Below are positions 4,725 to 62,941 of a stretch of DNA of 64,000 bases, in pieces. Location: NCBI RefSeq assembly GCF_964204865.1, contig NC_135259.1, positions 19,788,974 to 19,852,973 on the forward strand, read 5' to 3'. The notes beneath the pieces are model-generated. The model had not been told where the DNA came from, ran no database searches, and saw nothing but the letters and a program-made list of their open reading frames with translations. The DNA is from Styela clava. Taxonomy: Eukaryota; Chordata; Ascidiacea; Stolidobranchia; Styelidae. Numbering within the stretch: position 1 is the first letter of the stretch; every line of letters begins with the position of its first letter. Both the position numbers and the translations under genes were made by a program.

Positions 4725-5310
4725 ATGTCTACTGTCGAGACAGAATTCTACTGTGACACTCCAGATAACCCAAATCCGGACAGAAACAACACTTTCCCAG
4801 CGAATGACAATGTTTATGGAATGACATGTGTACAAGTTCCACCACAGAAGAGCAAAGGTATTTAAGGAGTTATTTATAAGCTGTTATTTGTTCATTTTAT
4901 GAAAGCATAGCGTTGAATTTAAAAAACTTTCAAATTGCAATATAATTCGTGTGGATATTTCACCTCTTCCGACTCCCCGGGTTTTATTGTTTGGTTTATT
5001 TGACAATAATCCTAAAACTTTACTATTGAATTTCAAATCTTTGCAGACAACAAGAAAACAAATATCAAAAATGGGCTGGTGATTTCAGTAATATCCTTGG
5101 CAATGGTCGTAGCACTTGTGACTTTCAATATTGTCATGATAACACAGGTGAGCTGAAAGTAACTAATTTTTATTAACTTTGAGTGATATATTTTGCTATT
5201 TTAATAACTGGTCTGAACGGGTCAGTTTAGTAGCGTAGGCGCATTCATATGCATCGAAATCATCAAACTTCTCCATTACAAATCGATGCTAACTGAACAT
5301 ATGAGGTTCC

Positions 5311-5621
5311 AGGGTTGGGCAACATTTTTGGACCACGGGCCAAAAATTTGGCCTATCTATATTGTGGTGCTATGTATGTGTGACGTAAAAAGTAACATTT
5401 TATGAACAATATTTACAAGGTCACAAAAGCAATACTGTAGTGGAAAACAGTACGCCTTGTGGCAAAACTAAATTTAATCGCAATCTCAATAAAATCCTTA
5501 AGCCTTTCCTCTTTTTTTTTAGCTAAAACATCAAAGTTTGGTTGTGGCAGCATCAGGTGTGCAAGATTGAAGTAACAAACGGGCCGGTTTGTCCCGCGGA
5601 CTGTGCTTCGCCCATGTCAGG
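5311..5621. mobile_element. hAT-like non-autonomous element in intron 2 of gene 1
   Basis: The left end reads CAGGGTTGGGCAACATTTTT followed by an ACGGGCC motif. The right end in reverse complement reads CTGACATGGGCGAAG. The interior (for example TTTAATCGCAATCTCAAT) matches the element at about 51753-52053 in the opposite orientation. CAGGGxTGGGCAAC ends are typical of hAT-derived MITEs. Confidence 0.65.
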
Positions 5622-6406
5622 GTTGGAGCCCAACCCAGTATTGTATCCTCAATTTTCACATTGCAAGAAATTTACTTTTTGACGGGTAGAAAATTGATAA
5701 AATTGACTTGTTTTATACAGATGCAGGACGAAATAAAACTATTGAGAAGACAACAGACGCCGCAAAACAATTCTTCCGCCGATCAGTTTTCTGACAAGAG
5801 AATGAGAAGTAAATCATGCATAGAAAATTACCGAATTTTACTTCTCAGTGAAACTGCGATGTAAAAATAAACTAATATATACTGCAGATTTGGATTCCTT
5901 CTTGACGAAACTGACTGAACAGCAAGCTCAACTTAACTACACCGTTGAAACCATTTTGCACCTGAATCGTTCACAGGAGCAATTGTCACTTTCAATAATA
6001 CAAGGTAAAAGATTGTGTTTTAATAAGCTTGCTGTCGCACACAAGTCGAGCATGTCTAAAACGGGAACATTTCTGGATGGGAATGATCGCAGGGGCAAAT
6101 TACCGCGGATGAAAATGCCCATGGGTGTGAATATATATTGGTGCGGTCATTCATATATGCAACTTACTGCGGGTGCAAATTACTATGCATACAATCTGTA
6201 TTTTGAACGTGTGCAGTTTATAGGTGCAAATGGACGTGGGTGAAAAATAATATAGCGGAATTTTAGAAGACCTCACGAGTTAAGGTTTTTCTGGCACAAA
6301 CTTTTTAGAATTTTCTAACTCTCCAAATATATTGCAGATTTTGATTCTTTACACACAAAACTGACTGAACAGCAATCTCACATTAACTATACCTGGAAAA
6401 CATTTC

Positions 6407-8123
6407 ACATCCGCTACCAAAACAAGCTTGCATAAATTAGAGACTTTACAGAATAGGGCTGTTAGAATTCTCTCTAGCTAGGGCGCCTATTTGTTCTAAC
6501 TTAAGTATTCTATACCATAAGACCAGGATTCTTAAATTGTCTGATATTTATGAGCTAGAACTAACTTCTAAACTTATGCATCAATTACACAATTATCATT
6601 ATCAATTGCCCACAGCTTTTTCCGACTATTTCGTCTCGCTTAGTAACATGCATGAGCATAATACTCGCTTTTTGAGCAATTTCAATTTATTTCTACTTCG
6701 ATTTACATTAGACAAGTGCCAGAACTCCTTGAAAATATAAGGGTGTTGTAATTTGGAATAGCATTCCCCATAGCCTACGTCAGTCATCTTATGACACCTT
6801 CAGAGTAAATAAAAGAAATTCATGCTTTCCCTCTACCCTTCTGTTATCCTCACATCCGATTAATGTGGATTAGAAACTCTCTTCGCCATTGCCAGCTCGA
6901 ACGATGACTTGATCCAGAGTACCTGTTTAAATACTCTTTGAATTCCCTGTGTAATTTATAACATTTGTACTAATATTTTTACCTGTGCATGTTGCATGGC
7001 ATCAGCCATACAACAAGTATTCACAGAATTTTCAACCTTGACCAATATATCAGGGGATAAGCTAAAACTTAAGTATTAAGCTTGATTATTGACCTAAAAC
7101 AAATAACTTAGGTCATTTACTCCCATTCAGTGACAACTGTCTTGATATCTGCCAATACAAGCAGACAATATAATCAGACATTATATTGTCTCTACTCACC
7201 ATGACATTCTTTTACCTGTCAACTACTATGAATTGATTTTTATGTATTCCTCTTCAGAACAACCTTGGCCAGTAGCCTATAAGTTATGAATAGTGATAAT
7301 ATATAGTTGAACATATATATTTGAGGCTGCTAAGATCTGGGTCTCTGGTAACAACCATTACAGGCAGCCAGATTACTGATATCCAGTCATTATACCCCTA
7401 ATAATATTATTATAATGTTAACCATATTCTACAATTTCATAAATCTGCCTTTGTTTTTTTCCCCATGTTTTATATAAAGTGGCATCTCGTCACTTAATCA
7501 AGTATCACATGCTATTTAATCCTTCCTTCAATTTTTGAATACTGTAGTCCATGTTCATTCTGATTTTACATTTTCAGTGTGTTAAACCCCAGCACAGATT
7601 TAGGTACCGGTACCGTTTTCTTCCTTCCATGGAAGGTACCGGTACAGTTCGTTACTACTACCGCACTTCGTTATTACCTTACAACCGACAGGACTTGTGC
7701 TTATGGCATTCAGTTCACTGTAACCCCGTGCCATACTATATCGAAAGTACAATGTTCTATAAATCTATATTGTACCATAGTCGCCTCACAATGGTACCAT
7801 TGTGACTTTGGCTCAAAACGCTATTGTCATAGTTACCTAGAATCTTAGTGCACGGAGTCTTTTTTTATAGTTGTTAAACGCGCGAATCCTGGGAACACCA
7901 GGTTTGCTTAGACGTATTTATTGTTTTCTCCAAATAACATATATAGTTCGAATCTTTGTTATTATTAATATCTGTTAGACTATTTTAAGGCTGCCGCTGC
8001 TCGATAACCTATATTGGGTTTTCGCGGTTTCCCTCGCCGTGAAACGCATTTTTCCTATTTATTGTAATTTTTAGTATATCCAGTGTGTTTTCAGTATGGT
8101 GAAAAAATAAATTACTGATTACT
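6407..8123 (+). mobile_element. 5'-truncated LINE inserted in a coding exon
   Basis: The stretch 6420-6880 reads, across broken frames, as the end of a non-LTR reverse-transcriptase polyprotein of the Jockey/CR1 type. It includes LHKLETLQNRAVRIL, then KLSDIYELELTSKLMHQLH, and finally KGVVIWNSIPHSLRQS, which corresponds to the family signature GPKLWNSLP. A long 3' untranslated part follows, and the element ends in ATGGTGAAAAAATAAATTAC at about 8115. It separates two halves of a stalk exon (6338-6406 and 8124-8164). Frame breaks show it is dead. The centre (7590-7650) contains GGTACCGGTACCG palindromes and may hold a nested insertion. Confidence 0.8.
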
Positions 8124-8569
8124 AAATCGCTCTCAGGATCAGCTGGAGCTTTGGGTAACACAAGGTAACAGTATGTGCTTTATTATTCAAACAGTAGAAC
8201 TTGATGTAGATGTAATAAATAGGGGTAAATAATCTTGCTGCATAACATTTTTTGGATTTCATGTATGAATTCTAGCATATCTAACATAAAGATTCATGAG
8301 TGGCCAACCAGCAGCTTGCGAAGTCCCACTAAGTAGCCTGCATAACTATAAATGACTTGTAAATTTAACGGTAGCGGTTTTTGGTGGGGACATCTTACGA
8401 AAGATTCCTAGTTTCAACGCTGGTGCCACTGTTATTTATAGATATTTCATAAATATAGTATTGACGACGCTTCGAATACACGTGCTAAACATGCTAACAC
8501 GCGTTTAAACAGGATTCGTTCGTAAACATACAGTATGTGACATTGCTAACCAGTACCAACCCCAACCTA

Positions 8570-8646
8570 TTGGGTGAACCAAAAACGGAAACTATATATA
8601 CTATATGTTTCAATTGGCCTGGGCTCCGTTTTTTGGGTCACACTGT
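8570..8646. repeat. Short inverted repeat beside a stalk exon
   Basis: The left arm GGTGAACCAAAAACGGA is answered by TCCGTTTTTTGGGTCACACT on the right, giving a foldback of about 75 bp. The right end lies only about 20 bp before the acceptor of the stalk exon at 8666, so the branch-point region of that intron may be supplied by this element. Confidence 0.5.
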
Positions 8647-9171
8647 ATATCTATGTTTGTCATAGATTCTGATGCTTTTTCAGAACTGGCGGGGCAATTT
8701 AATAAATCTCTTGAGGACATGTGGAGTCTCAACCAGTCTCATGGAACTCCGGAAAAGTCACTTAATCATTTTATTCAGCAACTTGCAACATCGATAAAAC
8801 ATGTTAATTTTTATTTGTGTAATTAGTATTACTGCAGTACTTGCAATATGATAACACAAAAATTGTCTGTGGTAAACGCTATCAATTTTTCTAATTTTCT
8901 CGGTATACTTTTATTAGGAATCATTTTGAAAATAACGTAACGCTTCTGAACGACGTAATTTTACCAATCTTCTGCCGTAAATAATATTTTGTTGGTAAGC
9001 CAACGTCTCAATCTGCTCTGCACCAAAATGAAGGCCATATAGTCATAACTTGTATTTTTGCAGACTCAGAAGTGCTTAATCTCAAACTTATTGAAACGCA
9101 GATCCAAATGAATCAGTCAGTTGCAAGCCTGAATCATTCTCTCCATCAATTAGCGATATCAGTGATACAAG

Positions 9172-11303
9172 GTGGGTTTAAATGACAAGAGATGCTCACA
9201 GGGGGGCGCGAGAGGTCACAAGATGGAATCGTAAATTTACATGTATCGGCTCCTGAAACGGTCTCCTCGTTAGTTAAAAATATCGGCTTTTTCGTGTTAT
9301 AATAAATTTTTCTGTCTCGTAATAACTACAATAATTCAAAAAGTCTCTCTATTTTAATTCATTTGTGTTCGAGGTAACTCGCGGTTGCGGCGACTCACGA
9401 CAAAATATTACCTATCTAAAATACCACGCCAATCCGCGGACATAATAAAGTGTGATCAATTGCCCGATTGTATTTAGTTTTTATATATATTGCACTCATG
9501 TGATTTCGTTCTCGTCATTAGAAAGATCTGGTATAATATCCCAAAAAGTATAATTAATTTAGTACAACTAAAATACATGTAAAGTATATTAGTAAATGAA
9601 AAACACATATTCATCGAAACGAAATCCCCGCGGTACGGCTTCTGAGTCAGTCCTCGAGATTACGCCAATCATTAAAAGAGCCGACTTTTTCAACGGATAT
9701 GTAATGGTTTTTCTGTTGAATAAAATATTCAATCCATGATTGATATACTTATTCAAAATGGTTTCTTTATTCATTTAATCGTGATAAATTAAATCTGCGA
9801 TTGCGTCGATAAAATAAAAGCACCAGTACTCCAAAATAACACGGTAATCCGCAACCATAAAAATGTCGATTACATTTTGATTTGTATTCTTGTCAATTTC
9901 ACTAATATGAGCTGTCCCTGCATCTCTCACTCCGCTCTATCGCAATTCGGCCACTCGATTAATTTCAAGATATCACCGTTACAGATATTCCTAAGTCTGC
10001 GATCCCACGGAGTAAAATTTATATCAAGTCTGTAGTTTTAGAACACTACTGGTGTGGCGCACGCACAAGGAATTTATGAGATTTTCAATGTCTAAGAAAG
10101 TGTTTTTAATCTGACGCGGTCCACCCCAAAACAAAACTCTTGGCGTTTTCCGTTTTATTTTTAGTATTTTATAACGCCACTTTTACAATCCCAAATTTTT
10201 TAGTTACGGATTCACTTCTTTATTCTATCTTTAGCATCTCGTCGCTGATGATTATAATAAAATCTAACTTGTTTTCCTCAGAGGTGTCATGGTTCCATTC
10301 GAGAACAAAAAAGTAATTATAATCGTCTTCGCGGCACAAGAATATGTCGAGGGAAATTTAGGAAGAATAAACACCAAAATCAAGATCTTTAGGGCTTAAA
10401 TACCACGCCACGCTAACGTAAAAAATGGAGATTTGAACAAATCGCAAACGCCTTAGCGACAACAATTGATTGAAATTTTACGTGTCTTATGTAAACGTTT
10501 AAGCAGAAAATAAATTAAAGGATAGGTTTATTGCTTGTTTAGTTTTACTTAATAATTAGTTTGACTTTGCCAAGTATTGCAAATTGAGCGAAAAAACGAG
10601 AATTTATGATGACCAACCACTATTTGGCTTGATACATACGACAGTGAATGGCGAAGTTGTACTCCGAAGCGTTTTATGCCTAAGCAATCTGAGCAATGAC
10701 GCTATGAGACCAACACTCAGTTATAGCGCCATCTTAATATATAACAACTTGTCCATCACAAAAGCATTTTTTCAAAGCAAAAAGAGGGGGGGGGGGGAGG
10801 GCGCGAAGTTTGTAAAATTTTTCAAAGGGGGGCGCGGCTCAAAAAGTTCAAGAACTCTAGATCTAGACTCTAGAGCGCGTGTTCGTAGAAGGTGACATTA
10901 GTGTGATGTCATAAATGGAATAGTAATAAATGCCCCGTCATATTACTGAGGTCAAAATACAAATCAAGTTGATCATCACAATAATTAGTTTACTCATAAG
11001 CGCCGTTATTAAGCTTATTTTGGAACAGACCTGCGGGCGACTCATATGGCCTTCACGAGCGACACGGTGCCCGCGGGCAACGGGTTGGTGACCCCTGTTC
11101 TAGAGTAATGATCAAATTTATATCCCTTTTTCATTCATGCCTCATTCAATCGTAGTTGGTGACTATCTGTGGTCTTGTAGATTCTATATCTCCGAGTTTA
11201 GCCTTGGCTTGTTCGCCGTTTATATTTCCTACTCAACGAATGAAAAATAACAAAAATCGATATCACTGCTGCAATGTTATAAAATAGTGCAATCTTTTTG
11301 CAG
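9172..11303 (+). other. Long intron of gene 1, repeat-rich
   Basis: No exon of the family is seen in this 2.1-kb interval. It contains GGGGGGCGCGAGAGGTCAC at about 9200, a G-run with CGCGAAGTTTGTAAAATTTT near 10790-10860, and at 11050-11100 a hAT-like terminus which in reverse complement reads CAGGGGTCACCAACCCGTTG. These look like ends of degraded hAT elements. The rest is AT-rich without recognisable coding sequence. Confidence 0.45.
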
Positions 11304-11472
11304 AGTCAGAGGCATTTCACAACAAACTCAACGAACAGCAAATCCGATTAAATCAATATATTGAAATCACGTCAAGTCTGAATTGTTCTCACCAACAATT
11401 AAAGATACAGGAACGTAGGTTAAGTAGTGAATCGGAATATTTTTTAAATACCATAAGTGATGGGTCTATATC

Positions 11473-12050
11473 AGTGCTCTTCAACCTTTTTGTTATTGCG
11501 GAACCCCTGATATAATTTTTCGTTTTTTAGGGAACCACAAATAACAAAAATAAAACACGAAATACTCGTAACACGAAATATTTGTAATTCAAATAGTTCT
11601 AAATCAACAACGAAACAAAAAGAAGGTAACAAGCGTGAAATTAAATGACTAGGTTGGTCTTGCATTTCCTTTGCAATCTTCTTGACGGCGCTCAAAGCAA
11701 TTCTCATACTCATGTCTACACTCTTTTAAACAACTTCTTTTTTGTTACTTTATGTTAAGGGACATACTTACTGTAAGTATGTTGATATTTGTCTGTCTGT
11801 ATGTATGTATGTCTGTTAGATGCACGCGATATCTCACGAAAGCGAGATTGAATCTACTCCAGATTTTACATGTGCATTCATCATATCTCGGACCAGAACC
11901 CTATTGTTTCTGGGCAAATTATGTCGTATAATTAGCGAGTTTTTAACTAATTATTGACTTTACTGGCCCAGCAGTCAATTTTTCCTTTACGTGGAACCCC
12001 ATAAACTCACATGTGTTGCGGAACCCTAGGGTTCTAAAACCCCTGCACTC
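11473..12050. mobile_element. hAT-like element with nested MITE
   Basis: The left end reads CAGTGCTCTTCAACCTTTTT followed by GCGGAACCCCTG. The right side carries GCGGAACCCTAGGGTTCTA and CCCCTGCACTCTG, an imperfect inverted terminal structure. Inside, 11750-11955 holds a copy of the repeat with GATATCTCACGAAAGCGA, also found near 15275 and 35725. It sits between the last stalk exon and the first FReD exon of gene 1. Confidence 0.5.
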
Positions 12051-13375
12051 TGGAACTTTTATCCACCACTGGATGACGGCTATATTGGGAACAGAAGTGC
12101 TAAACGATATTTTGAACGCCTTTACAGTACTGAATACATTTTTTTACAGTTTTCCCAAAGGACTGCACAACTGTATTTCGTAAAAATGCAAAAACCCAAA
12201 ACAACAGCGGTGGAGTCTTTGATATTTATCCAGAATCAAGCGACAAACCTTTCGAAGTTTACTGCGATCTTGTAACTGATGGAGGCGGATGGACAGTATG
12301 TTACATGTATCCAACTACTTTCTAATATAATGACCTTAGAAAAAAGATAATATTTTTCTGCTAGCTCTGATAACATGTTGCATTATTAAACATCTTAGAA
12401 CTTTTTGGCAAAAACCCTATGCTTTCACTTGTACTGAGTAGCCCCATCATTTCTCAATCTGGAAGGAAAATGCCAGGAAATTTCAATTTACGAAATTAAA
12501 AGAAAAGTAAAACGATAAATCTTCTAAATTCATAAAATGATCTGGCATCAGTAACTGCCGTCAAAAGAATGAGAAAATCATGGTAATCATGACGTAATAT
12601 TGACGGTGTTTCGCGGTTGAAAATCCAGGCTTGACCCCCCTTGTTATATTTCCAAGGTCTTTCAAAGACGAATGGACGGAACAGAAGACTTCTACAGAGG
12701 ATGGGACGAATACGCCAATGGATTCGGAGAAAAAGATAAAGAAATGTGGTTAGGTGGGTGTAGTTCATTTGGGCATAAAATGTAAATCTCCGAACTTGAT
12801 CTATTGTGTCCAGAGGCCATCAAATTCTTTTGAGCTCCGATCATTAAGTAGCAAATTGTAATGAACTAATAACAGAACATATCTATGCAGCAGAATCCAC
12901 CAAATGTTTTGCAGTTTTGTCTATTTCGTTTAAAACAGTTGTTATTCTTGGAGCCAGGCCAGCTATCTATCATGTTTCTTAGCCATGCTTGCGAATATGC
13001 CCTTTCGGACATATGATTTCTAATGTGGTTCAGATAGTTGGGTTCCCAGTTTGTAGAGTTCTGGGTAGGTATTACTTAAAAACTATAGCCCACTTGACCT
13101 TGGGCATGCAATGCAGCCAGCAATTCATGTGTATTATATTTTCCACGTTCAGGCTTGGAAACCATCCATCAACTGACTAAAAACAGAAGTTACGAACTAA
13201 GAGTTGATTTGGGAGTGACTTGACTGCACTGTAATGAAGATTGTTGTCTCTATTTATTCATCGTAAGAGAGTTTCTTTATTATATTATATCTGATTACTA
13301 TATCTCGTAAACAATTAAATTGATTCACATTAAGGCGCGCTTCCATTTTCTCGGTCAGTTAGTTCCACCAATATT

Positions 13376-15175: not shown

Positions 15176-15274
15176 GTACCGGTAAAATTAAATAAAATGT
15201 ACTCGCGGACCGGCAAAAATTGAAATGAGTGGAATAGGAAATAATACCATATCGTCGTTATTACTTATTGATCT

Positions 15275-27500: not shown

Positions 27501-27856
27501 TGCGCGTAGCAATCAATGATGTTCCAATATCATTTCTAGCAAATCAATCATTCGAATTGACAAATCTAAGTGCCTGGTATCAGAACCTCTACTTGTAAAA
27601 TGAAACATGTCAAAATAAAGACGTTTTTAATAAATAAGGGAAGGAAATTCTAAGAAAAAGACCTTAAAAATAAGCACAAATCTTAGAAATAAGGACGTTA
27701 TGGCAGCCCTGCGTATAGACTACAATTCAAAATACCTTTGTGCTTTTGCTGCCGAACGCATGGCGTTTCATAAATATTGACATTAGCTGGCAAAGCGTTA
27801 CTTCTATTTGGATTATCTGGAATTTCATTGTAAAATCTCGTCTCGGCTGTAGACAT
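24503..27856 (-). CDS. Gene A: type II membrane fibrinogen-domain protein, short stalk
   Basis: Seven exons join into one frame of 322 residues: 27736-27856, 26969-27069, 26526-26613, 26213-26358, 25428-25524, 25205-25301 and 24503-24821 (969 nt with stop). Residues 1-40 are a tail with RFYNEIPDN and NIYETP; residues 51-72 are a hydrophobic helix ([20 protein letters not shown]) preceded by KR; 75-103 form a short stalk ([12 protein letters not shown]); 104-322 are the FReD. It has [36 protein letters not shown], calcium-site motif [19 protein letters not shown] and LNGMYYQ. No signal peptide and an N-terminal helix imply type II topology, like the vertebrate receptor FIBCD1. An in-frame ATG at 27895 could add 13 residues; I chose MSTAETRF because paralogues start there. 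It lacks the second stalk exon present in gene C, but the intron sequence otherwise resembles gene C. Confidence 0.82.
25540..25625. repeat. Fragment of a dispersed DNA element in gene A
   Basis: TACCGTATTTCTCCGTGTAT followed by AATACGCAC and GGGGGTGCGTATTA resembles the ends of a non-autonomous element widespread in animal genomes. It lies 8 bp upstream (in gene direction) of the VFQRRMDG exon of gene A, so it supplies part of that acceptor region. The adjacent GTCACGGACCATATTGTCC is shared with gene C (about 42507). Confidence 0.5.
25731..25964. mobile_element. MITE of the ACTCCCGTAGTATGTGTACC family, copy in gene A
   Basis: The ends are inverted: TACTCCCAAAGTATGTAAAC at left and, reverse complemented, CACTCTCGAAGTATGTGAAC at right. 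The interior contains GTAGTATGTGTACCAG, GGCCATAATTTC, ACTAGCCAAGTGACTCCCGT and ATGTCCGCCATCTTGGTTC, shared by the other copies. It lies in the intron between the first two FReD exons of gene A. Confidence 0.8.
26661..26862. mobile_element. MITE of the ACTCCCGTAGTATGTGTACC family, second copy in gene A
   Basis: It contains ATATGTGTACCAGGTTACGG, GACTAGCCAAGTGACTCCCG, CTAACCCTAACCTGATACAC and GTGTCCGCCATTTTGGTTCA, and ends in CATACTACGGGAGTACC. It sits in the intron between the transmembrane exon and the stalk exon. Confidence 0.8.
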
Positions 27857-39640: not shown

Positions 39641-39646
39641 GTTTGG

Positions 39647-44400: not shown

Positions 44401-45805
44401 TTTAAACATACACATGAAACACATGTTTAAAAAAGTGTGGGAAAGCTGCGTCCGCGTGAAAATTGAAACCCATCCAGTACATTCACGATTACATCCTTGA
44501 TAACATCGCAATGAGATTTATTTTTGGGCCCACATCTATAATTTTTACATCTTTCATATAATCTTTTTCACTTATACAGAGACCATTTTTCAAATGCGTT
44601 TCTTAATCTTCGTGTTCGATAAGTCAACCATTTATAGAACAGTAAAATTACCATTTTCCTCTAGCCATTTTAACCTAGCAAATGACTGGTCTCCTTGGTG
44701 TGCCAATTGCTCTTTCATAATTTTCATCTCACTCTGGAGCTGTTGATATAATGGAATTATTTTAGTGTTCACGTGTACTTCCAAGAATCAGAGACATTGG
44801 TAGTTTTGGCTTTTAAACCACCGAAAGTCAGTTCATTGTAATAATATACGAGCATTGAAACAATAAACTCGCTACCTAAAATAGGATTGCGCCCATTGAC
44901 TTTGAGACCATTATTTGCGGTTCACGCCGTGCAGAACAGCATACCCTTCTATGCTATTTTAGACATTAAATCTGGTTTAGTCAGTTCAAACGAACCATTT
45001 TTAGGTTACTTTTTTTTTCAAAAATGTATTTGAAAAGCTCCTCAAAAGTTCGCATCAATTGGTGCTTAAAATTCTTCATGTATAGACAATCTTCAACCAC
45101 ATTCGGACAGAAGGGAATTTGATTTGAAGTTTCATTAATTGAGTTGGGCGTATGGGTGTTTGACTAAATAGCTTTGTCGTTTATGAGGTTTTGCTATCAC
45201 ATTTTGTACTTCATTTTGCATTGTGAATTCTTATTGTTTTGACAAAATTCGCTTGTTTATTATGCATATACATTCGCACTTTCCGGTATAATATTGATAG
45301 AACATAAAATAACTTCAGAAGAATTTCACTAACCTGTGTGATGATCACAAGACAGAAAACAACAAGCCCAACAACCATTGATAAAAATATTGACAGAGCA
45401 ACTAGTCCTCTTCTTACTGTTGTGCCTTTAGTATCTGGAATGATAACAGAATTTACTTGTTAATAAAAACATCAACCGAAAACTGAAAGTTCAGCGATTC
45501 TGTAATCAATAAGGGTTCAGCAAATTGAATGATTCATGATAATTGTGAATCATGAATCATGATAATAAAGGTAAGTCACGTCATGCGAAACTTGAAATAA
45601 TATATTTCGTCGAAGTAAAATAGTAACGGATGGCGAAAATGAATGGCACTTCATAGCTAACGTATAAACTAAAGATCGAAATACCTTTGTGCTTTTGTGG
45701 TTGAATGCGCGTCGTTTCATAAATATTGTCATTGGCTGGCAAAGCGTTACTTTTATTTGGATTATTTGGAATTTCACAGTAAAATCTCGTCTCGGCTACA
45801 GACAT
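41417..45805 (-). CDS. Gene C: type II membrane fibrinogen-domain protein
   Basis: Eight exons give 359 residues: 45685-45805, 45334-45434, 44652-44739, 44053-44163, 43754-43899, 42337-42433, 42110-42206 and 41417-41735 (1080 nt with stop). Residues 1-40 are the tail (RFYCEIPNN and NIYETT); 51-72 the helix ([20 protein letters not shown]) after RR; 75-140 the stalk on two exons ([30 protein letters not shown]); 141-359 the FReD with [33 protein letters not shown], calcium-site motif DSDND, AWWYKDC and LNGMYYQDG. An in-frame stop lies just upstream of MSVAETRF, which fixes this start. The 219-residue FReD is of usual length. The intron between the first two FReD exons carries a hAT remnant (42568-43414). 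No lesion is seen, so this is the best reference model for the short-stalk subfamily. Confidence 0.87.
42568..43414 (+). mobile_element. hAT remnant (GTF2IRD2/ZBED5-like) in gene C intron
   Basis: The left end CAGGATCGTTCAACCCGTGG and the right end, reverse complemented, CAAGGTCGTCCAACCGTTTT form terminal repeats, and flanking octamers ATGTAAAG and ATGTTGAG agree at six of eight bases. The plus strand at 42960-43195 reads [25 protein letters not shown], a stop, then [20 protein letters not shown] and LLEAV, matching the transposase core with the DESTD-like motif. Only this piece of the enzyme remains. Confidence 0.8.
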
Positions 45806-49479: not shown

Positions 49480-52400
49480 TTATGCTCTTTTCCAAAACTT
49501 CATCTCACTGAACTTCAGAGACAGGTAATTAAATTTCCAGGAATGCCAATTAACGAATTGTGCACCATCTCGCCCGTTTTGATAATATATTCCATTCAAA
49601 TTCGATTGATGACAATGCTTGTACCACCAAGCCCCACTCCAAGTGATCGCGCAACTGCCGGACGCTTGATCATTGTCAGAATCTTTTGTACTAAACTGCA
49701 TATTGTTATGATATGCCAATGAATCACCGGCCCTTCCAGAATATTCTCCAAGTATTAACCGATATCGATCGCTTGCATATGAGATTGAGAACGTCCTGAA
49801 AACAAAAGAAGCTTGATTCAATGATATTTCTGGCAGGTTAAGTGAACCAACATATCTCGCGCGTCGTTCAAATTGATAATCTAAATCTTAGATTCTAAGA
49901 TATTTGAACAAATGTATCTTTTAGGTAGGAACATCACACACAATATCCGTAAAATTATATACTGATTCAACTTACTTTGCCCAACTTACTAAACTGCTGT
50001 ATTGTATGGCATGTGACGGTTGAGAAAACTTGGTTTCCGGTCAGTGGATATTACTGCAGCATATATGCGGGAGAATTAGCAGAATGATCGAATTATTAAT
50101 ACTAGTCGATGCGGGTTCATTAACCAAGAATTTATTCTTTAGTATTAAAGTTAATAATGGTAAACTGTATTTTAATAATTACCCATATTTAGCATAAGAA
50201 GTGTTCCCATTAAAATCTTCCAAATCAACTCTTAGTTCGTAACTTCTGTTTTTAGTCAGTTGACGGATTGTTTCCAAGCCTGAATATGAAGATGTAAAAC
50301 ATGTGATATATGAATTCCCGGTTGCATTGTATACACGCAGTCAAGCAAGTCGTAAATATAAATCGAGAATTGTTGTGATGCTCGAAAAATAAAAAACATT
50401 TACGATGAATTTGAGGTGTTAACTTAATATTAACTTATAGGCATTTGGACCCTGATTTATAGTGTAGTAGCACAGTGAAGTTTGCAAACAGAGCACCAAG
50501 TTAAAATTTCAAGATATTATGTTCCACTTTTATTGTGATACCAAGTGCCAAGTGACTCCCGTAGTATTTGCACCCAAAATTATGGCCTAACCTGGTACAC
50601 ATACTACGTTCTAGTCATGCCCACCATCTCGGTTCGCATACTGCAGGAATACCGTTATTGTAATACAATGAGTAACTTGTCGCCGCGCTAAAGGATTTAT
50701 TAGCCACCAGTTGCATATATCTAATTTGAACATTTGATTTTTTTTTATGTCGAATGCACTACACCCACCTAACCACATTTCTTTATCCATTTCGCCGAAT
50801 CCATTGACATAGTCGTTCCATCCTCTGTAAAAGTCTTTTTTCCCATCCATTCTTCTTTGAAAGACCTTAGGAATATAATAAATACAAAGTTGACTCTCAT
50901 TAATCAAGCAAATATATTACTATTTATAGTCAGGGACGGACACTTTCCAAATATCATATTTTTTTGAAGATGGACTTGGATTATCTACCGCGAAATACCA
51001 TACCCTTTTATTACCTTTCTTTCAATTCATTCATCATTTTGGACGCAGTTTCCGGGCATTAATTTCAAAAATTTCATGGTTCTGGTGACCTTTATTTTGC
51101 ATAACCATGTATGAATACTAGCAAAAAATGTAACGACGCACGCAAGGACGCGGTTTGATTTAATTAATAACTATTAAACAATATGAACCATGAATTTCAA
51201 TTACCCTTTCGATGTCGCAACACCCACCATCAAAGAACACAGTGTGATCAATATGTCATCATATAATGTTTTCATGACCCAAGAAGATAACATGTTATTA
51301 TCTCCGCCACATTCGATTTTTAATTTAAAAACTAGAATTACGTGACATTCTTAGTCAATATTGAGAATTAAAAGCATCGGGTTTGCCAAAAAAGTTCCAA
51401 GATGTATAATATAGTATAAATATAACTTTATATATGTATTCCTGCATAGCGATGAATTTGTGAACAACGGTGCTCAGGGATAGTGCATGATTGCCACCAG
51501 GTAAAGTCATGTTGATAATAAATGAAGCACAACCGGTGTTAGCAAAACGAATTAATTTGCCGACGTTTTCTGTATAGAAATTCGAAACGTCGGCAAATTA
51601 CATCGTTTTGCTAACACCGGTTGTGCTTCATTTATTATTAAGGTGATCAGGAATAGTAGTTTCATTTATAGACCTTGTCTTATACAATAGAATACGCGTT
51701 GGTTGTTTCAAAATTAAACCATCTTTTTACAACGGGAGAGACACTCTAGAGCTGACATGAGCAAACTACGGCCCGCCGAAAGTTACGGGCCTAATCCGAC
51801 CTGCTGAGTAATTCAATCTGAACCGTCTGATGCTGCCACAACCAAACTGAAACCAAATTTTGATGTTTCAGTCAGAATTAGCTAAAGGAATTTGTTGAGA
51901 TTGCGATTAAATTCAGTTTTGGCACGATATTTATTGTTTTCCCTTTTGCTTTTGTGACAATGAAAATATTGCTTATAAAATGTACCCTTTTGCGTCACAC
52001 TTACATGGCCCGCCAGTCTGAGTGGGCAACATTTTTATGCCCAGGCCCAACAAGATTTACTCACCTAACCTAATTACTCATTCCCTATTGTTGAGGAAAT
52101 TTCCTCGCGACTGCTCGTCCCGAAAAATCATATTTACTGAAAAATTTCGATACGCTTGTCCAGCTAGTGCACTTTCTTAATATTTATTTATCTTAAAAAG
52201 AAGCAGTCGGAAAATGCTACTCACAACCCATCCACCTCCATCAGTTACAAGATCGCAGTAAACTTCGACAGATTTGTCTTCGGATTCGGGATATATATAA
52301 AATACTCCACCGGCGGTGTTTTGACTTTTCGCAAAGTGGCGGTTTACAGATGTGCAATCCTTCGGGAAAGCTATAAAACATTGCAAGTTCATACTGTTAT

Positions 52401-54094
52401 AGTAGAATATTCAGTCAAGAATTACACCCAGATTATCGGCGTGAAATGAGATTTGGACACTACTTTACATCCTATATAGTACCAGAGTGGTCAAAGGTTG
52501 AGAAATTGGCGGTCCGCAAAAACTTTTGAGGATGTCTCGAGGGCCGCAGTCGGAGAAAACCGAAAAGTGATCAAAACATCGCGACTTTACTCACATTACA
52601 TATATTTAAGAATGAGAGTTTACCGTTCTAATCTGTTTTTTAAGAAAGATATATAAAGCTATTAGTTATTTTGAAATTGCTTCCCAGAAATACTGTGGTA
52701 TTTTCGGTATCTTGTTTCGTGTTTGGTTTTATAATGTCGCTTCGAATTATATTCTTTCGTGACATATATTACTTGAAAACACCCAAGACACTGTGGTTTA
52801 ACGTTGTTGTGGGTTAGGAAATACGTTTACCTCGGTCACCTTTTTTACTCATTGAATGATGAATTGTTAAATTTGATAAATTTTATTACTTGTAGCGTGA
52901 GCAGACCTGGTGCTATCGTCAAAGAACAACCAAGTCCGCCTAAGTTGGTACTCCGGACCCAGCTGAAAAAAAATGGATCGCACGGTGCTAAGTCAGCTCT
53001 GCGGTTCGTCACTGCTGTCTCGTGGCCAACGCTTGGAAAAGAGGAGTGTTTTTACTAAAATAAAGGCACATAACGTCGCCGCAAATGAGGTTTTACTTGA
53101 CGCGAGCTCAATGCACAAAGTTTAAATAAAAATTAGAGCTGTAATTAACATATCGAAATGCATTATTAAAGATGTCATTTAAAAGCGGTTGTAAATTTTG
53201 TGACTCAATTCCATTGTTCAAATCATGTTCAATCTGTTATTCAAAATCTAGGCAAATACGTACAAAACATGGTCTATTGATACTTTTCGCATTACCTCGC
53301 ACGGTAGACAACAGAAGTTCTACGGAATGATTCAAACGTGACATTTTGTCAAGAGATTCCATTTGTCTCAACGACTGGTTTCTTTGATGTTCGAATTGCC
53401 CTTTCAAACTTCTCATCTCACTCTGAAGCTGTTAATATAAATTATTCGTTTTCAGTGTTTACATGTAGATTGGAGAAATCGGATAATTTTGGTTCTCAAC
53501 GACAAAAATCCGAATGATTCTGAGAACAGTGAAACGTTAAATATATTAATGGAATATTTGGGTTAGATATGGGAGTTCGGGTAAATATTAGTATATTCGA
53601 AATAAAAAGATAAACAGCATTTCCTTCTCACCCTTTTCAAATGGTATGAATGTTTTGCTGTTACTATTTGTGATTTATTCTGCATTGGGAATATGTATAG
53701 TTTCAACAAAATTGTAACCATATTAATAAAACAGACGGTATTGTTGATTATGCAAATACATTTGCACTTTCCGGTATATAGAATGACCACGGATACATTT
53801 TTCTGACCTGTATGATGATCACAAGGCCGAAAACAACAAGCCCAACAACTATTGATGAAAATATTGCCAGAGCAATGAGTCCTCTTCTTGCTGTTGTGTC
53901 TTTATTACCTGAAATAATAACAGAATTTACTCGTTGTGCGCAATATAGATCGTGGTCAAACTATATATTTAGTAAAACATACCTTCACTCTTTACTGACT
54001 GCGGCGAGATGGGGATTTCATAGAGATTCGTATCCGATACCACTGTCCTTACTTGCGGGAGATTTCTACGAAATTCTGTCTGTGCGACTGACAT
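49480..54094 (-). CDS. Gene D: type II membrane fibrinogen-domain protein, divergent tail
   Basis: Seven exons give 333 residues: 53983-54094, 53808-53908, 53296-53428, 52225-52370, 50769-50865, 50183-50279 and 49480-49795 (1002 nt with stop). The tail (MSVAQTEFRRNLPQ) has lost the first tyrosine motif but keeps NLYEIPI. The helix is at about 48-70 ([20 protein letters not shown]). A single longer stalk exon (72-115) fuses LQSEMRSLKGQF with NQSLRQMESLDKMSRLNHS. The FReD (116-333) has [33 protein letters not shown], calcium-site motif DSDND, CAITWSGAWWYKHC and LNGIYYQNG. The 1.36-kb intron between the first two FReD exons holds a long perfect-looking hairpin and two hAT-type fragments. No disabling change is seen. 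Confidence 0.83.
50541..50656. repeat. Half MITE, ACTCCCGTAGTATGTGTACC family
   Basis: CCAAGTGACTCCCGTAGTAT, GGCCTAACCTGGTACACATA and CACCATCTCGGTTCGCATAC form the right half of the family unit. It lies in the gene D intron between the second and third FReD exons. Confidence 0.65.
50931..51065. repeat. hAT 3'-end fragment shared by paralogous introns
   Basis: CAGGGACGGACACTTTCC followed by GACTTGGATTATCTACCGCG resembles the 3' end of the ZMYM1-like hAT at 17779. Related sequence lies at the same intron position in gene B (about 32880-33020) and gene 1 (about 12500-12635), so the insertion predates those duplications. Confidence 0.6.
51513..51642. repeat. Long near-perfect hairpin in gene D intron
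   Basis: The left arm starts TTGATAATAAATGAAGCACA and the right arm, reverse complemented, TTAATAATAAATGAAGCACA. The arms are about 58 bp, include ACCGGTGTTAGCAAAACGA and TTTGCCGACGTTT, differ at very few places, and enclose a loop of about 13 bases. It could be a foldback element or a small-RNA precursor; no coding potential. Confidence 0.85.
51753..52053. mobile_element. hAT-like element, inverted relative of 5311-5621
   Basis: CTGACATGAGCAAACTACGG at left; GTGGGCAACATTTTTATGCC near the right end. The interior GAGATTGCGATTAAATTCAG matches the gene 1 intron copy in reverse. No transposase. Confidence 0.65.
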
Positions 54095-56687: not shown

Positions 56688-59600
56688 CTACGTTTTTTTT
56701 CGAAACTTCATCTCTGTGAACTTTAGCGAATGATAGCTCCTCCATTTAATCCAAGTAACGGATGTCTCATTATACCGCCCGTCCTGGTAATATACCCCAT
56801 TCAGATTGGAGAGAAAACACTTATTGTACCACCAAGCACCACTCCAACCGATTGCACAGCTACGGGAATATTTGTCATTGTCAGAATCTTTCGTACTAAA
56901 CTGCATATTGTTATGATACGTCAATGAATCTCCGGCTGTTCCAGAGTATTCTCCAACTAGTAATGTATAGTTTTCGCTTGCAGATGCGATAGAGAAATAC
57001 CTGAATCATAATGATAAATCTTAAACAAAATGACATTGCTGACAAGTTACACGACCATATTGATGATAGGATAGGATTTAGAATTTGGATATTTATCCCT
57101 ATGAAAAAGGAAAGCCGATAATACGGCTCAACCATATGCGAACCACGGCCTTCCGTCCGGGTACCAATCCATGTTGGTGATGGGATTAATTAGCCAGTTA
57201 TTTGTCTTCGGAAGCATGGAATTGATGGTGGAGGAAATCGACCAGCGGTTAAGTGAACCACCCTACCGGTCAGTAAATATTGTCACAGCATAAATAAACT
57301 ACAAATACCATAGTCATTGATTAATGACATATGTATATACTCATCAATGAGAATAATCTTCGTATATTAAAAATGGTTAATTATATCTTGCTACTTACCC
57401 ATATTTTGCATAAGCAGTGGTTCCATTGAAATCTTCCAAATCAACTCTCAGCTCGTAACTTCCATTTTTAGTCAGTTGATAGATTGTTTCTAGGCCTGAA
57501 TATGGAGATGTAGACAGTGGCGTATCTAGGGTGTGGCAGCCATGGCTCGTGTCATGGGCGCCGCATGCACAGGGGCGCAAAAAAGGCGAAAAGTTTTAAT
57601 CGTAAAATATAATAAAATAATTTTAAATCGGAAATAACTGGAACTCGTATTTTGACCAACATAATAACGTACAAGTATCTCAATTCAACAACAGCCGTTG
57701 AAAATTTCCAGTCATCGATCAAGGGGGCGCTTTATTTTCAAACTTTGCCATGGGCGTCATTTTACGTAGATACGCCACTGAGTGCAGAGCATATGAATTT
57801 CTCTTGCATTGCATTGCTTGCATACACGAACTCAAGCGGTTGTAATTTTTCTGTTATTTACCCACAGAAATCGCAAACTATTATAAAGCATGAAAGTTTA
57901 TGATGAAATTCAGGTGTTTAATTATTACCATTTATACGCATTCGGACCCTAATATCTCTGAACTCTCTGCCTTAAAGTTTCATTTATATAACAAGCAAAA
58001 GAGCAGCCAGTACAGACTGCAAACGGGGCACCAGGGGGCCCATTTGCCAAACTTCATTTTTATCATTTAACGTGTTAGTAAATCGAGAAGTTGGAATTCA
58101 CTGAAATCGTAAATATTTGAGAGTTTTTTTCGCGCTTAGTAAAACGTCTTGTACCTTCTCATATTTTGTCATGAAAATGACATTTTCCAAATTTAATTTA
58201 TTGTCCTTTCCCTTTAGGAAGATGAGAGAAGGACCCCTATCCCCCCACCCGGTTATTTGAACTTTTGTGTGAACCTCGAGCATTTTCGTGGGCAAGATAA
58301 GAAATCTCAATAAAGCATTCTACACAGCTGATGACAAGAATAACAACTGGATTGCATGGAAATGAACGAAACATCCATCGAATTTTGCTGCATACCCACA
58401 CCATTATATTAATGAATTATTACAATTTGAGGATCCTAACCCTCACGCGGCTACGTCATCTGAAAATTACGTCACAGTGACGTAATAAGGCCCTTCAAAG
58501 TTTACGGATGGTCGTCTGACTAAAACGCACAGACGTTGATCCAAAATCGAGCGAGCTATTTCTCTCGTTTTCTCGTCATAACGATACGGATAGTAGAGAG
58601 ATCGCTGGCGTTAGTGAGTTAATTATAGTACAGCACAGATGCTAATTCGGACGATCGTATCTATACTTTGGCAAGCTCTGTGACGTCGAAGTGACGTAAT
58701 TTTCGGACGACGTAGTCAGGTGGTTAAGAATATTGAGTGCAAAAATCAATATGCTACACGCACTAGAAGTACTTGCGGGCGCGTACTTCGGGAAACCTAA
58801 ATTTGTTCCTCAATGGTCGAAGCTCCAAAAAATAGTTAAATTTGGAAAATTCTAGTCTTTTCTCGAAGCGAAAAGCGCTTTACCCACCCAACCACATTTC
58901 TTTATTATTTTTTCCGAATCCATTGGCATAGTCGTTCCATTCTCTGTAAAAGTCTTCTGTTCCGTCCATTCGTCTTTGGAATATCTTAGAAATATTGATC
59001 ATAGAGGCTTATCCAAAAAATAGAATCCATAAATTACCTAGTTACTTTTATTAAATTGTTTGATTTTGAACTTTTCTTAAGTATGATTCTAAGTACTTGG
59101 ATAAATGTGACATACTGTCCATCCGCCTCCATCCGTTAAAAGATCGCAGTAAACTTTAACCGGTTTGTTTCTTGATTCCGGATATATATCAAAGACTCCA
59201 CCGCTGGTGTTTTGACTTTTTGCATAATTACGATTTACAGTTGTGCAATCCTCCGGAAAACCTGCCAGAATTTATATACAGTACTGTAAAGACGCTCAAA
59301 TAACGTACAGCTCAAATTGATATTACAAAAATATTGAGGATCAATCCTTAACGTACCTAGTAGCGTTGGTATCTTCAATTGTTGATGGGAACGATTCAGA
59401 CTTGACACATCTATAATAGATTGATTTAATCGTATTTGCTGTTCGTTGAGCTGTGAGCGAACTGCCTCTAAGTCTGCAAAATGATTGCAATATTTCATCA
59501 TATTGCTGATTGAATTTGGTTTTTGTTATTTCTAATTCGTTGGAATACGAGCAATTCATATGAATAAGAACAATTTGAAATAATTTCACCAGTTAATTTT

Positions 59601-62600
59601 TTTACTATAATCTTTCTGCATTGCGGTACAACTGCGAGAGCGAAGCTCAAATATATGGACACGAAGTCCAAAACGCCATACGGTATGTAATCTGTCAGAG
59701 CAGACTACCGGTACCATCAGTCAACGCGGAAGACAGCCATCATGAAAGCGTATTCCCACGAAAAATACAATCTTGAACCACTGAAAATTCCAAAGCAATT
59801 TGTCCTGTTGTTGAGGAGAAAAGCAATTTTTTCATAACGATAAGAAGAAAAATACCAACAACATAATAACAAAACTATCCATATGTCTACTTTGCGTCCA
59901 ATAATAACAATAAAATATTAGCAAAACGATCCCAAGATCCAATAATACCAGGAATGAAAATTACCGTGTTTCACCAACGTTGCAATTTGCTGAACAGAAT
60001 GATTCATGGAATTTCCAAGTGTTCGTGAAACATCTTCAAGAGATTTATTGAATTGCCCCGCCAGTTTTGAATACATGTCAGACCCTGTAAAAAACGCAAA
60101 TATACGTCAATACGTTGTATTAGATAGCAGTAATTTCATTACAGTATTTATATGTATTTCATAGGATGGTCTGTCAAATACATAACTCATTTTATATGTG
60201 TTACAGATAGTGTTATCGCTAATAGCAAAATATTAACCACCCACTAAATTTTGGAACCTCCCTCCCAAATAGCCATATTTCAGAATTCCCACGCGATTTA
60301 ATACAATAAATAAAATATCAACAGTATTTACTCTACTTATTATATCTGATTCAAATCTTGCAAGATTTTGGTGTTTAAATATTGAAATATAATATATTCC
60401 GTTACCTTGCATTACTGAACGTGAAAGTTGCTTCTGGGAAAGATTCAGATACAAAATGCTTTCGATGGTGTTGTTGATTTGGGATTTATGTTCAGTCAGT
60501 TGTGTGTACAAGAAATCGAAATCTGTTAGATTATTCGAAATTATGAATTTCTAAACAATTCGTGTCAAAGACATGCAAAAACTTTACTCATGAGATTGCA
60601 TGAATGTACCGCCAAACAGATGTACCGATGTATTGGAATCGGCTCAAGGTAGACCGATATTTCGGATATGTTTAGCTTTTCAATCTGATTCAGAATGTTT
60701 CAAAAAATAGGTTAGAATACGGATGTTGCAATTAGTTTTTGCGCGGAGGGATCATGTTCGCGGTATTTGCCTCCATCAATTTCCTATTATCTGATATATC
60801 TCTTTTTCCATCTGAAACAATGTGCACTATGAATATTGCTCACAGTCTATTGTTTTAATCCGTCTGTCCTGCACACTTAAGATAATAATTACATAGTATC
60901 ACAAATATCGGCTTTTTTTAAATATTGGTCTCGGCGATAAAAGCGGTTCGGTACATTTCTAGTATGAACCAAACGGGGGCGACCTGTGTGTCTATACTAA
61001 TATAACACGGTTCGGTTGTATTTATGGATGACTCGCTACTGTTGTACTTGTAGATGTAACTGACTCCATGTATATCTGCCAAAGTTTAATTTAAACAGTA
61101 GGCCTACATACAAGCAAGTTTACATGAAATTTTGGAGATGTATTCCAAGGTAACATTATGCTGCGAATTTTCCTGAAGATAGCTGTATGATCATCCAAAT
61201 TTAGTTGTTATATACCTCAAGACAAATCTATTAGGTATTCAAAATAATGTTTTTTCAAGATTTATGAACCATCGCAAAGTAAAATTGATAGACAAAGTGA
61301 TAGACTTGGTTTACCTCTTGTTTTCTGGTCATAAAATTGCTCAATGGAAAAATTATCCTGAGGAGTCTGCTTCATTCCCTTTATTTCGTTCTGCATCTGT
61401 TCAAAATGGGACTGTTTTTGTGAGTTTATTAAGTTTTTCACTTTTCAAAAATATTTCTTTTTGTGCCGAAGGTACCCCCCCCCCCCACAATACAGTGTGG
61501 TCTAGTCCGATATATTCGGCTAAGTGGGACCGTTGGGCATTCGCTAAACTTCATAGAAAGTAAGGTATACGAGCACGTAACAGTGTCTCTAAAAAGGCAA
61601 TAGCGACTCATTCATTGTATGTGCGATTCATGAAATATCTCGTAAACGCTTGAAGCACGGTTACGTACATCTCTCAAAATCTAACGCCTGGGCACGTAAG
61701 TTCTCTCGAAATCTTACGCACGGTCACGTACATTCTCCCGAAATCATACGCACGGTCACGTACATTCTCTCGAAATCATACGCACGATCACGTACATTCT
61801 CTCGAAATCGTACGCACGATCACCGTTGAACAAAATCCCTTCTTGGTCACTCAGTCATATCACTTGCCTCGCGGAGCTGGTGAGCAGGTTTTGAAAGGAT
61901 CGGTCGGCCTTCTCTGCCTTAATTTCAGGGATTGGTAGATTATCTGTATTTTTGAATTTAGTTCTTGTAACAGATAATCTACCAATCCCTGAAATGCTCA
62001 TACCAAGTCACGTATTGTGAATCACCCGTGTATCACACAATGCAATAAGCGAATTGTCTTACGGCACCGATCAAAAATATCACCTTAACGAGTCTATTCA
62101 GACGAGTTTCCATCCCATTGTGGTCACGTGACCAAACGTCGATGATGTTAAAAAATAAGAAAAAGCATTAGGAAATAATGGGATACAAAGCCTCTTTCGG
62201 GCCATGGAAACAGGTTTCGCGGGCCGGACAGTGTCCCGCGAACCGTTTATTGCACCCCTCTGTTGAAGATGGAACAATTAAAATGCAAAACTTATTACTG
62301 TTTCATTAAATATTAGCTGTATTCCACTTACCTGTCTGATCATAAAAATATTAAAAGTGGCGAGTGCGACAATCATTGCCAAAAGTATTATTAAAGTCAC
62401 CACTTCATTTCTGATCTTTGTGTTTTTGTTCTCTGAAAAGATATGAAATGCATAGGATATTGTAAGTATAATATCAAATATTCCTACAAATTTCACTGAA
62501 AGTTTTCATTTTTCACAAAGTAACGGTACGTAATGTTCATCTCATCGAGAATTTTGTAAAAAAATGATGCAAGGCAGCTGTATGCATTTATTGAAGCATT

Positions 62601-62941
62601 GAAAGATGTCGTAATCGCGACTACGTAAAACCTAAAATAAAAGTAAATATACCCTTACTCTATATGGCGTCTTTGCCTAGTGAAGGAATAAAACCTGACA
62701 GACGCAGGAAGTCAAATACCCATACAAATTATAATGGAAATTTCAAATATTAGCGCTATGCTTTCATAATGTGAACGAATGACAGCTTATACCTAACTCC
62801 TGAAATACCTTTGCGTTTCTTTGGTTGAACTTGAACACATGTCATTTCATAAACATTGTCATATGCTGGTAAAGTGTTGTTTTTATCCGGATTTGAATCA
62901 TCCGGAATGTCACAGTAGAATTCTGTTTCAGCAGTAGACAT
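56688..62941 (-). CDS. Gene E: type II membrane fibrinogen-domain protein, long stalk
   Basis: Ten exons give 440 residues: 62809-62941, 62332-62432, 61315-61396, 60406-60522, 59965-60084, 59357-59473, 59116-59261, 58888-58984, 57399-57495 and 56688-57000 (1323 nt with stop). Residues 1-44 are the tail (EFYCDIPDD, DNVYEM); 55-76 the helix (VVTLIILLAMIVALATFNIF); 79-223 the stalk on four exons with recurring sequons NNT, NLS, NKS, NHS, NQS and NRS; 224-440 the FReD with [33 protein letters not shown], calcium-site motif DSDND, CAIGWSGAWWYNKC and LNGVYYQDG. Tail, helix and stalk order match gene 1, including related intron 1 sequence. A MITE sits 18 bp from the acceptor of the GLETIYQL exon. 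No disabling change is seen. Confidence 0.85.
57515..57780. mobile_element. hAT-like MITE next to a splice acceptor of gene E
   Basis: Ends CAGTGGCGTATCTAGGG and, reverse complemented, CAGTGGCGTATCTACG. Flanking octamers GATGTAGA and AGTGCAGA agree at five of eight bases. GGGGCGC motifs occur near both ends. No coding potential. Confidence 0.8.
58435..58730. mobile_element. MITE with about 50-bp CRE-rich inverted ends in gene E
   Basis: The left end contains GGCTACGTCATCTGAAAATT and ACGTCACAGTGACGTAA. The right end, reverse complemented, contains GACTACGTCGTCCGAAAATT and ACGTCACTTCGACGTCAC. The element thus brings several TGACGTCA-like half sites into the intron between the second and third FReD exons. 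Confidence 0.75.
59628..59910. repeat. CAAATATATGGACACG dispersed repeat, copy in gene E
   Basis: It starts AAGCTCAAATATATGGACAC, includes CCAAAGCAATTTGTCCTGTT and ends CTACTTTGCGTCCAATAATA. It lies in the intron between two stalk exons. Confidence 0.65.
61656..61823. repeat. 32-bp tandem repeat in gene E intron
   Basis: About five units of CACGTACATTCTCTCGAAAT followed by CATACGCACGGT. Units differ by single bases, the first being most diverged. It lies in the intron between the transmembrane and first stalk exon. Confidence 0.85.
61922..61995. repeat. Perfect 26-bp hairpin in gene E intron
   Basis: The arm ATTTCAGGGATTGGTAGATT continuing ATCTGT (61922-61947) is repeated exactly as its reverse complement at 61970-61995, with a 22-base AT-rich loop. 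It directly follows the 32-bp tandem repeat. Confidence 0.85.

Follow-up and report, generated by a model that had tools for sequence, protein, structure and literature searches.

A 64,000-nucleotide stretch of the Styela clava genome (assembly GCF_964204865.1, contig NC_135259.1, positions 19,788,974 to 19,852,973 of the forward strand; hereafter the window) contains one gene in six copies, and its product combines a short tail, one hydrophobic helix, a stalk and a C-terminal fibrinogen-related domain (FReD). The sequence suggests that the copies probably form a small family of FIBCD1-like type II single-pass membrane FReD proteins, not recent in origin and tandem apart from one inverted member, which has diversified at the ligand site. 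The copies were located by tblastn within the window. G1 lies on the plus strand with its first codon at 4725, and G2 to G6 lie on the minus strand with first codons at 27856, 35351, 45805, 54094 and 62941, respectively. The outermost two of these ATG positions are the limits that a first-pass annotation of this DNA had given to the family. It had also proposed six genes or remnants of one architecture, and indeed the tail, helix and FReD exons occur in equal order in all six. In window coordinates, with E1 for the tail exon, TM for the helix exon, S for stalk exons and F1 to F4 for FReD exons, the copies are as follows.

4725..13211, plus strand: G1, degenerate copy; E1 4725-4857, TM 5047-5147, S1 5721-5808, S2 5888-6004, S2b split (6337-6393 and from 8119), S3 8666-8818, S3b 9064-9171, S4 11304-11414, F1 12150-12295, F2 12657-12753, F3 from 13153; homology stops near 13211.
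24503..27856, minus strand: G2, intact model of 322 residues; E1 27856-27736, TM 27069-26969, S1 26613-26526, F1 26358-26213, F2 25524-25428, F3 25301-25205, F4 24821-24503; Pfam Fibrinogen_C 239 bits.
31247..35351, minus strand: G3, pseudogene-like copy; E1 35351-35231, TM 34993-34893, S1 34342-34255, S5 about 33815-33697 with a TAA stop, F1 33525-33380, F2 32767-32671, F3 32036-31940 (acceptor GG), F4 31559-31247 (acceptor AA).
41417..45805, minus strand: G4, intact model of 359 residues; E1 45805-45685, TM 45434-45334, S1 44739-44652, S5 44163-44053, F1 43899-43754, F2 42433-42337, F3 42206-42110, F4 41735-41417; Pfam Fibrinogen_C 238 bits.
49480..54094, minus strand: G5, intact model of 333 residues; E1 54094-53983, TM 53908-53808, S1 (lengthened) 53428-53296, F1 52370-52225, F2 50865-50769, F3 50279-50183, F4 49795-49480; the sole copy with the pocket histidine (FIBCD1 His415); Pfam Fibrinogen_C 236 bits.
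56688..62941, minus strand: G6, intact model of 440 residues; E1 62941-62809, TM 62432-62332, S1 61396-61315, S2 60522-60406, S3 60084-59965, S4 59473-59357, F1 59261-59116, F2 58984-58888, F3 57495-57399, F4 57000-56688; Pfam Fibrinogen_C 240 bits; best match in the PDB is FIBCD1.

The splice-chain models of G2, G4, G5 and G6 have coding lengths of 969, 1080, 1002 and 1323 nt without a single internal stop. All are multiples of three, as had been claimed for the four intact models. Since the chain search was restricted to GT donors and AG acceptors, the GT-AG borders are themselves uninformative; what is informative is that in-frame chains are found at matching positions in four copies. The exon phases are common to the copies. 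E1 ends in phase 1, the TM exon of 101 nt ends in phase 0 and S1 runs from phase 0 to 1. Later stalk exons, from zero to several per copy, run from phase 1 to 1. F1 (146 nt) ends in phase 0, F2 (97 nt) in phase 1 and F3 (97 nt) in phase 2, and F4 holds the stop codon. S1 of G2 to G4 was missed with G6 as query; it was recovered by a phase-constrained search and is backed by the alignment of G2 to G5. The four-exon FReD of the first-pass annotation stands for the other copies and fails for G1, which retains two of these exons and part of a third.

All four spliced intact proteins match Fibrinogen_C (PF00147) with 236 to 240 bits against a cut-off of 22, and the match extends from profile positions 1-3 to 218-219 of 221. 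Single-exon open reading frames (ORFs) score far lower: the five from F4 reach 86 to 103 bits, and the two scanned from F1 reach 34 and 37 bits. The spliced proteins thus lend independent support to the splicing of the FReD. This gain is silent on the tail-helix junctions. Fibrinogen_C is also the only domain above the Pfam cut-off in these four proteins. For G6, the one copy that was compared with solved structures, human FIBCD1 ranks first among 68 PDB sequences with E up to 0.001 (E = 2.2e-59, 204.9 bits). MFAP4 with 198.5 bits and tenascin-R with 198.1 bits follow closely. FIBCD1 had been cited as the known tethered form, and this result supports it as the nearest analogue, although the lead is narrow and falls short of proving orthology.

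According to PMC3908420, the acetyl group of N-acetylated ligands is enclosed in FIBCD1 by Tyr405, His415, Tyr431, Ala432 and Trp443, and these residues are conserved in FIBCD1, tachylectin-5A (TL5A), L-ficolin and M-ficolin, except that Trp443 is a tyrosine in the others. We compared the five FReDs of G2 to G6 over 216 columns in FIBCD1 numbering. Asp391, the calcium-binding aspartates 393 and 395, and Cys401 and Cys414 are identical in all five. The pocket itself shows a very different picture. From G2 to G6, position 405 reads R, Y, S, W, W; position 415 reads Y, Y, Y, H, F; position 431 reads T, D, T, G, N; position 432 reads V, A, W, A, E; and position 443 reads N, K, K, N, S. Each position thus holds three to four different residues among five FReDs. 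Tyr405 is kept once (in the pseudogene G3), His415 once (in G5) and Ala432 twice (in G3 and G5); Tyr431 and Trp443 are kept in no copy, and as aligned no copy has an aromatic residue at 443. None of the five FReDs has a complete canonical acetyl pocket. As far as the alignment is right, the canonical pocket is lost.

The variability is concentrated at these positions. Mean entropy is 1.73 at the pocket against 0.50 over all 216 columns (permutation p = 1.2e-4), and the difference persists against the columns from position 352 on, which correspond to about F4 (mean 0.66, p = 1.4e-3). Leaving out the pseudogene G3 gives a pocket entropy of 1.60, with p = 1.3e-4 against all columns and 1.2e-3 against those from position 352 on. 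Among the four intact copies, 32 FReD columns hold at least three different residues; the 48 columns between 396 and 445 contain 19 of them and the remaining 167 columns 13 (Fisher p = 7e-7).

Nonsynonymous and synonymous differences per site (pN and pS) were counted by the Nei-Gojobori method in the four intact copies. For codons within one position of a pocket residue, pN/pS is 1.12 (12 codons, bootstrap range 0.64-2.7), compared with 0.32 for the other 204 codons. pS is similar in both sets, with 0.42 near the pocket under this rule and 0.37 elsewhere. A hand-drawn pocket rim of 24 codons gives 1.01 against 0.28, and the IQ-TREE codon tree of five copies has a length of 6.4 for this rim and 1.6 for the other 191 codons. 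Because the rim was picked after the alignment had been seen, we give it less weight than the fixed rules of one or two codons on either side. These values suggest diversifying selection at the pocket.

Several observations weigh against this interpretation. With the rule widened to two codons, pN/pS falls to 0.76 (19 codons, 0.45-1.37) against 0.31 for the remaining 197. No sampled 24-codon window of the FReD (step 8) exceeds 0.69, and the highest such window of all, with 0.85, lies at the tail-helix border. The extended ligand positions 382, 396, 412 and 413 of the S1(2)/S1(3) subsites, as given in PMC10825690, are less clearly variable (p = 0.015), and His382 is invariant. The loop alignment is gapped near FIBCD1 428-432 and 442-445, so that the residues assigned to 431, 432 and 443 may be shifted by one position. 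The pocket test was not blind, since the alignment had been seen before the published residue list, and four intact sequences are a small sample for a selection test. Given the within-2 ratio of 0.76 and the lack of any sampled FReD window above 0.69, relaxed constraint explains the data equally well and positive selection is unproven.

Relaxed constraint leads to another scenario, in which ordinary FIBCD1-type endocytic receptors for acetyl groups or glycosaminoglycans have merely been multiplied and the pocket differences are functionally meaningless drift in loops. Among solved FReDs, that of FIBCD1 comes closest to G6, the layout appears to be the same, and a pocket ratio of about 1 is what lost constraint would give. 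Against this, residues reported as conserved across FIBCD1, TL5A, L-ficolin and M-ficolin (PMC3908420) are mostly replaced here, and the scaffold of the four intact genes is under purifying constraint, with pN/pS of 0.32 outside the pocket, which argues that these genes are not simply decaying. We consider mere multiplication unlikely. A family that has diversified at its ligand site is the reading that we follow below.

Membrane anchoring was assessed from the N-terminal exons. Every one of the six copies has a single strong hydrophobic segment that starts at residue 52-58, with a mean Kyte-Doolittle hydropathy of 2.57 to 3.04 over 19 residues; the next best segment elsewhere reaches at most 0.63. 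The helix starts 51-57 residues from the initiator methionine, which is deep for a usual cleaved signal peptide. In G1, G4 and G5 the start codon is fixed by in-frame stops just upstream of the ATG. The tail is coding, because its codons are constrained (pN/pS 0.44 over 35 codons in the four intact copies). The pattern agrees with a signal anchor that keeps the N-terminus inside. The flanking charges speak less clearly for this orientation. In the order G1, G2, G4, G5, G6 and G3, the net charge of the 15 residues before the helix is +4, 0, +3, +1, +3 and +1, and that after the helix is +1, -2, 0, 0, +2 and 0; with 0 before and -2 after in G2 and +3 before and +2 after in G6, flank charge is weak evidence for topology.

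Most FReD families are secreted, and signal-peptidase sites need small residues. Both facts bear on the possibility that the proteins are secreted or matrix components, similar to ficolins or v-Themis, in which case the hydrophobic exon would serve as an alternative or a long, cleaved signal sequence, or a signal-peptide exon would be present in other transcripts. The location of the fibrinogen-like v-Themis proteins of Ciona in the egg coat, reported in PMC7018956 and PMC9265791, sets a precedent for secretion. The present helix, however, follows a constrained coding exon at 51-57 residues from the methionine, and the sequence behind it (for example IITQLQSEM and MIRQMQNEI) lacks the small residues of a peptidase site. 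By eye, the common blocks in the alignment of G2 to G5 from TM to F1 are TM, S1 and F1, and no further exon stands out. Secretion therefore appears quite improbable to us, and a membrane-anchored protein remains the preferred reading.

The tail comprises 37-44 residues and contains tyrosine in every copy, as the first-pass annotation had it, though in G5 only one tail tyrosine is left. A tyrosine near position 9 is found in 5 of the 6 copies and the tyrosine of N-[IVL]-Y in all; the fuller motifs F-Y-x-[DE]-I-P and N-[IVL]-Y-E occur in four and five copies, respectively. These motifs might serve as docking sites for SH2 domains or for the endocytic adaptor AP2.

The stalk between helix and FReD differs strongly in length. 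It comprises 30 residues in G2, 67 in G4, 45 in G5 and 146 in G6, so the intact copies range from 30 to 146; among the broken copies it comprises 193 in G1 (split exon left out) and 30 in G3 (stop-bearing exon left out). This variation arises because symmetric exon cassettes of phase 1/1 are gained or lost. In the models, all stalk exons after S1 are of this phase and of a length that is a multiple of three, and they encode 36-51 residues each. S2, S3b, S4 and S5 repeat a single unit, as seen in the matches of S5 of G4 to S4 of G6 (E = 9e-7), of S4 of G6 to S3b of G1 (7e-4) and of S2 to S4 within G6 (0.004). S3 matched only its counterpart in the other copy, with no significant match to this unit. 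N-glycosylation sequons number 7 in the stalk of G6, 9 in G1, 2 each in G4 and G5, and none in G2 and G3, with the same exons of G1 and G3 left out. The description of the stalk as sequon-rich is thus right for G6 and G1 and does not apply to the others. A helical periodicity of 3.4-3.67 residues is significant in the stalks of G1, G4 and G6 (p = 0.002, 0.005 and 0.0025). It is not significant in G2, G5 and G3 (p = 0.063, 0.074 and 0.19), which counts against a helical stalk.

Taken together, these features suggest how such a protein might work. The short N-terminal tail would lie in the cytosol and a single uncleaved hydrophobic helix would anchor the protein in the membrane. A stalk of variable, cassette-encoded length, at least partly helical, would lift the C-terminal FReD off the cell, and the proteins may form oligomers. 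The calcium site and the Cys401-Cys414 disulfide would hold the ligand site in shape, with a pocket that differs from copy to copy and may bind a changed ligand. Ligand binding could then bring the heads together and trigger uptake or phosphotyrosine signalling through the tail tyrosines. The proteins might in this way take part in recognising microbes or other individuals; the first-pass annotation, too, had offered a role in immunity or self-recognition as no more than inference. The earlier proposal of a surface recognition family gains some support from the pocket variability as far as the recognition role is concerned. A more far-reaching version is conceivable, and we offer it tentatively, judging it somewhat short of an even chance: a germline-diversified repertoire of membrane FReDs, in which a calcium-locked, constrained scaffold carries a pocket rebuilt in each copy, cassettes set the stalk length and the tail tyrosines signal, so that the ancient acetyl-binding site would have turned into a variable recognition site for microbes or for other individuals in allorecognition.

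FReDs are a main recognition module of invertebrates, and to our knowledge FIBCD1 is the single well-studied example of the tethered form. If the repertoire described here is real, a scaffold that is held while its sugar pocket is rewritten per copy would make germline receptor diversification in invertebrates directly testable. Each head is a compact domain whose pocket is known, which makes it easy to screen ligands and to swap pockets.

Both remnants are borne out by the sequence. G3 carries three lesions: a TAA interrupts its second stalk exon, the F3 acceptor reads GG where AG is required, and the F4 acceptor reads AA. Skipping the stop-bearing exon would keep the frame, yet both acceptors stay lost, and we rejected G3 as a fifth intact gene. 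In G1, tblastn within the window finds no F4, and homology ends inside F3. Its stalk exon S2b is broken between 6393 and 8119, and the second half of the repeat resumes downstream. The interrupting stretch 6394-8118 contains an ORF at 6441-6870, which we take to resemble the end of a non-LTR (long terminal repeat) retrotransposon polymerase; Pfam gave no match above cut-off. The flanks connect the two remnants.

28823..30995, no strand assigned: downstream flank of G3; four blocks match 13220-16308, the flank of G1, in inverted orientation with 72-87% identity.

Because these blocks match in inverted orientation, G1 and its flank appear to be a G3-type unit copied in inverted form. The tail and helix of G1 are nonetheless closest to those of G6.

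Four intact and two broken copies fit the birth-and-death evolution that had been proposed. The accompanying view of an actively duplicating set is overstated. Outside the pocket, the FReDs of the intact copies have a pooled pS of 0.37, so that about 37% of their synonymous sites differ, and any two copies share 53 to 90% identity in their modules. We rejected recent duplication on these grounds. The modules may not tell one common history. In the tree of tail plus TM, G1 and G6 are separated from G2 to G5 by a branch of 0.28 substitutions per site with a bootstrap of 100. The trees of F1 to F3 lack this split and have internal branches of at most 0.03, and node supports in the FReD are only 40-89. 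This mismatch between two N-terminal classes and the FReD hints at gene conversion or an exchange of exons. A swap of the N-terminal module, homogenisation of the FReD exons or faster evolution of the N-terminal exons would each account for it.

The window contains further repetitive elements. A remnant of a hAT-type transposase lies between G1 and G2 at 18404-20569 on the minus strand (DUF4371, 4.3e-18; hAT dimerisation region, 9.3e-10). A dispersed, partly self-complementary repeat of about 200 bases occurs at 25733-25963, 26662-26861, 40367-40557, 47518-47637 and near 50504-50688, with one copy within the TM-S1 intron of G2. A near-perfect (97%) tandem duplication of 322 bases is found at 2373-3016, and 5.3 copies of a 32-base unit lie at 61655-61823 in the TM-S1 intron of G6.

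Within tunicates, the obvious comparison is with v-Themis-A, -B and -B2 of Ciona, which also carry a fibrinogen-like domain and are multi-copy and variable (PMC7018956). The present genes could accordingly encode self-incompatibility or allorecognition ligands related to v-Themis in place of immune receptors. The same source describes v-Themis as polymorphic, with B and B2 gene pairs that look like duplicates, and pocket variability would fit such a role. v-Themis proteins, however, belong to the egg coat, and their genes lie in the first intron of the PKD1-like s-Themis in opposite orientation (PMC7018956). No such partner was found among the 10 non-FReD ORFs scanned, in a search that was not exhaustive: only the hAT transposase pieces exceeded the Pfam cut-offs, and most ORFs of the window were left unscanned. 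A relationship to v-Themis is the explanation to which we give the least credence; anchored FReD proteins with a diversified ligand site account better for the locus. In Botryllus, an anti-fibrinogen antibody stained membranes, and the authors considered the protein possibly membrane-bound (PMC2527998). In a review of tunicate immunity (PMC5465252), ficolins are mentioned, and the passages matched contain no membrane FReD. Among the open-licence literature matches listed, judged from titles, beginnings of abstracts and matching passages, none describes a tandem membrane-FReD family in a tunicate.

FReD families have also expanded elsewhere. Placozoans show an expansion of secreted, intelectin-type FReDs according to PMC6321704, and FBG domains of Drosophila have diverse P-domain sites according to PMC2429915. 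The fibrinogen-related proteins (FREPs) of snails are likewise an expanded FReD family, described in PMC7588048 as carrying one or two immunoglobulin superfamily (IgSF) domains. Pfam gave no IgSF match at E up to 0.05 in any of the four spliced proteins, and we rejected FREP membership. As in ficolins and tachylectin-5A, the FReD conserves the calcium site and the pocket disulfide. Unlike these, the family has not kept the acetyl pocket and has an anchor-like N-terminal helix; membership in the ficolins was rejected, with no collagen match in the four spliced proteins at the same threshold. FIBCD1 is closest in layout, with a short tail, one helix, a coil region and a C-terminal FReD (PMC3908420, PMC9449597), an order that appears to recur here, and the calcium aspartates 393/395 and Cys401/Cys414 are kept in all five FReDs. 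FIBCD1 is further characterised by a coiled-coil stalk, a polycationic segment ahead of its FReD and assembly into homotetramers. We do not file the family under FIBCD1, because the acetyl pocket is whole in none of the five. Unlike FIBCD1, it comprises six clustered copies, builds its stalk from variable cassette exons and has, in most copies, F-Y-x-[DE]-I-P and N-x-Y-E in the tail. Compared with the FIBCD1-type layout already known, what is new is the gain and loss of stalk cassettes and an invariant calcium site and disulfide beside a variable acetyl pocket.

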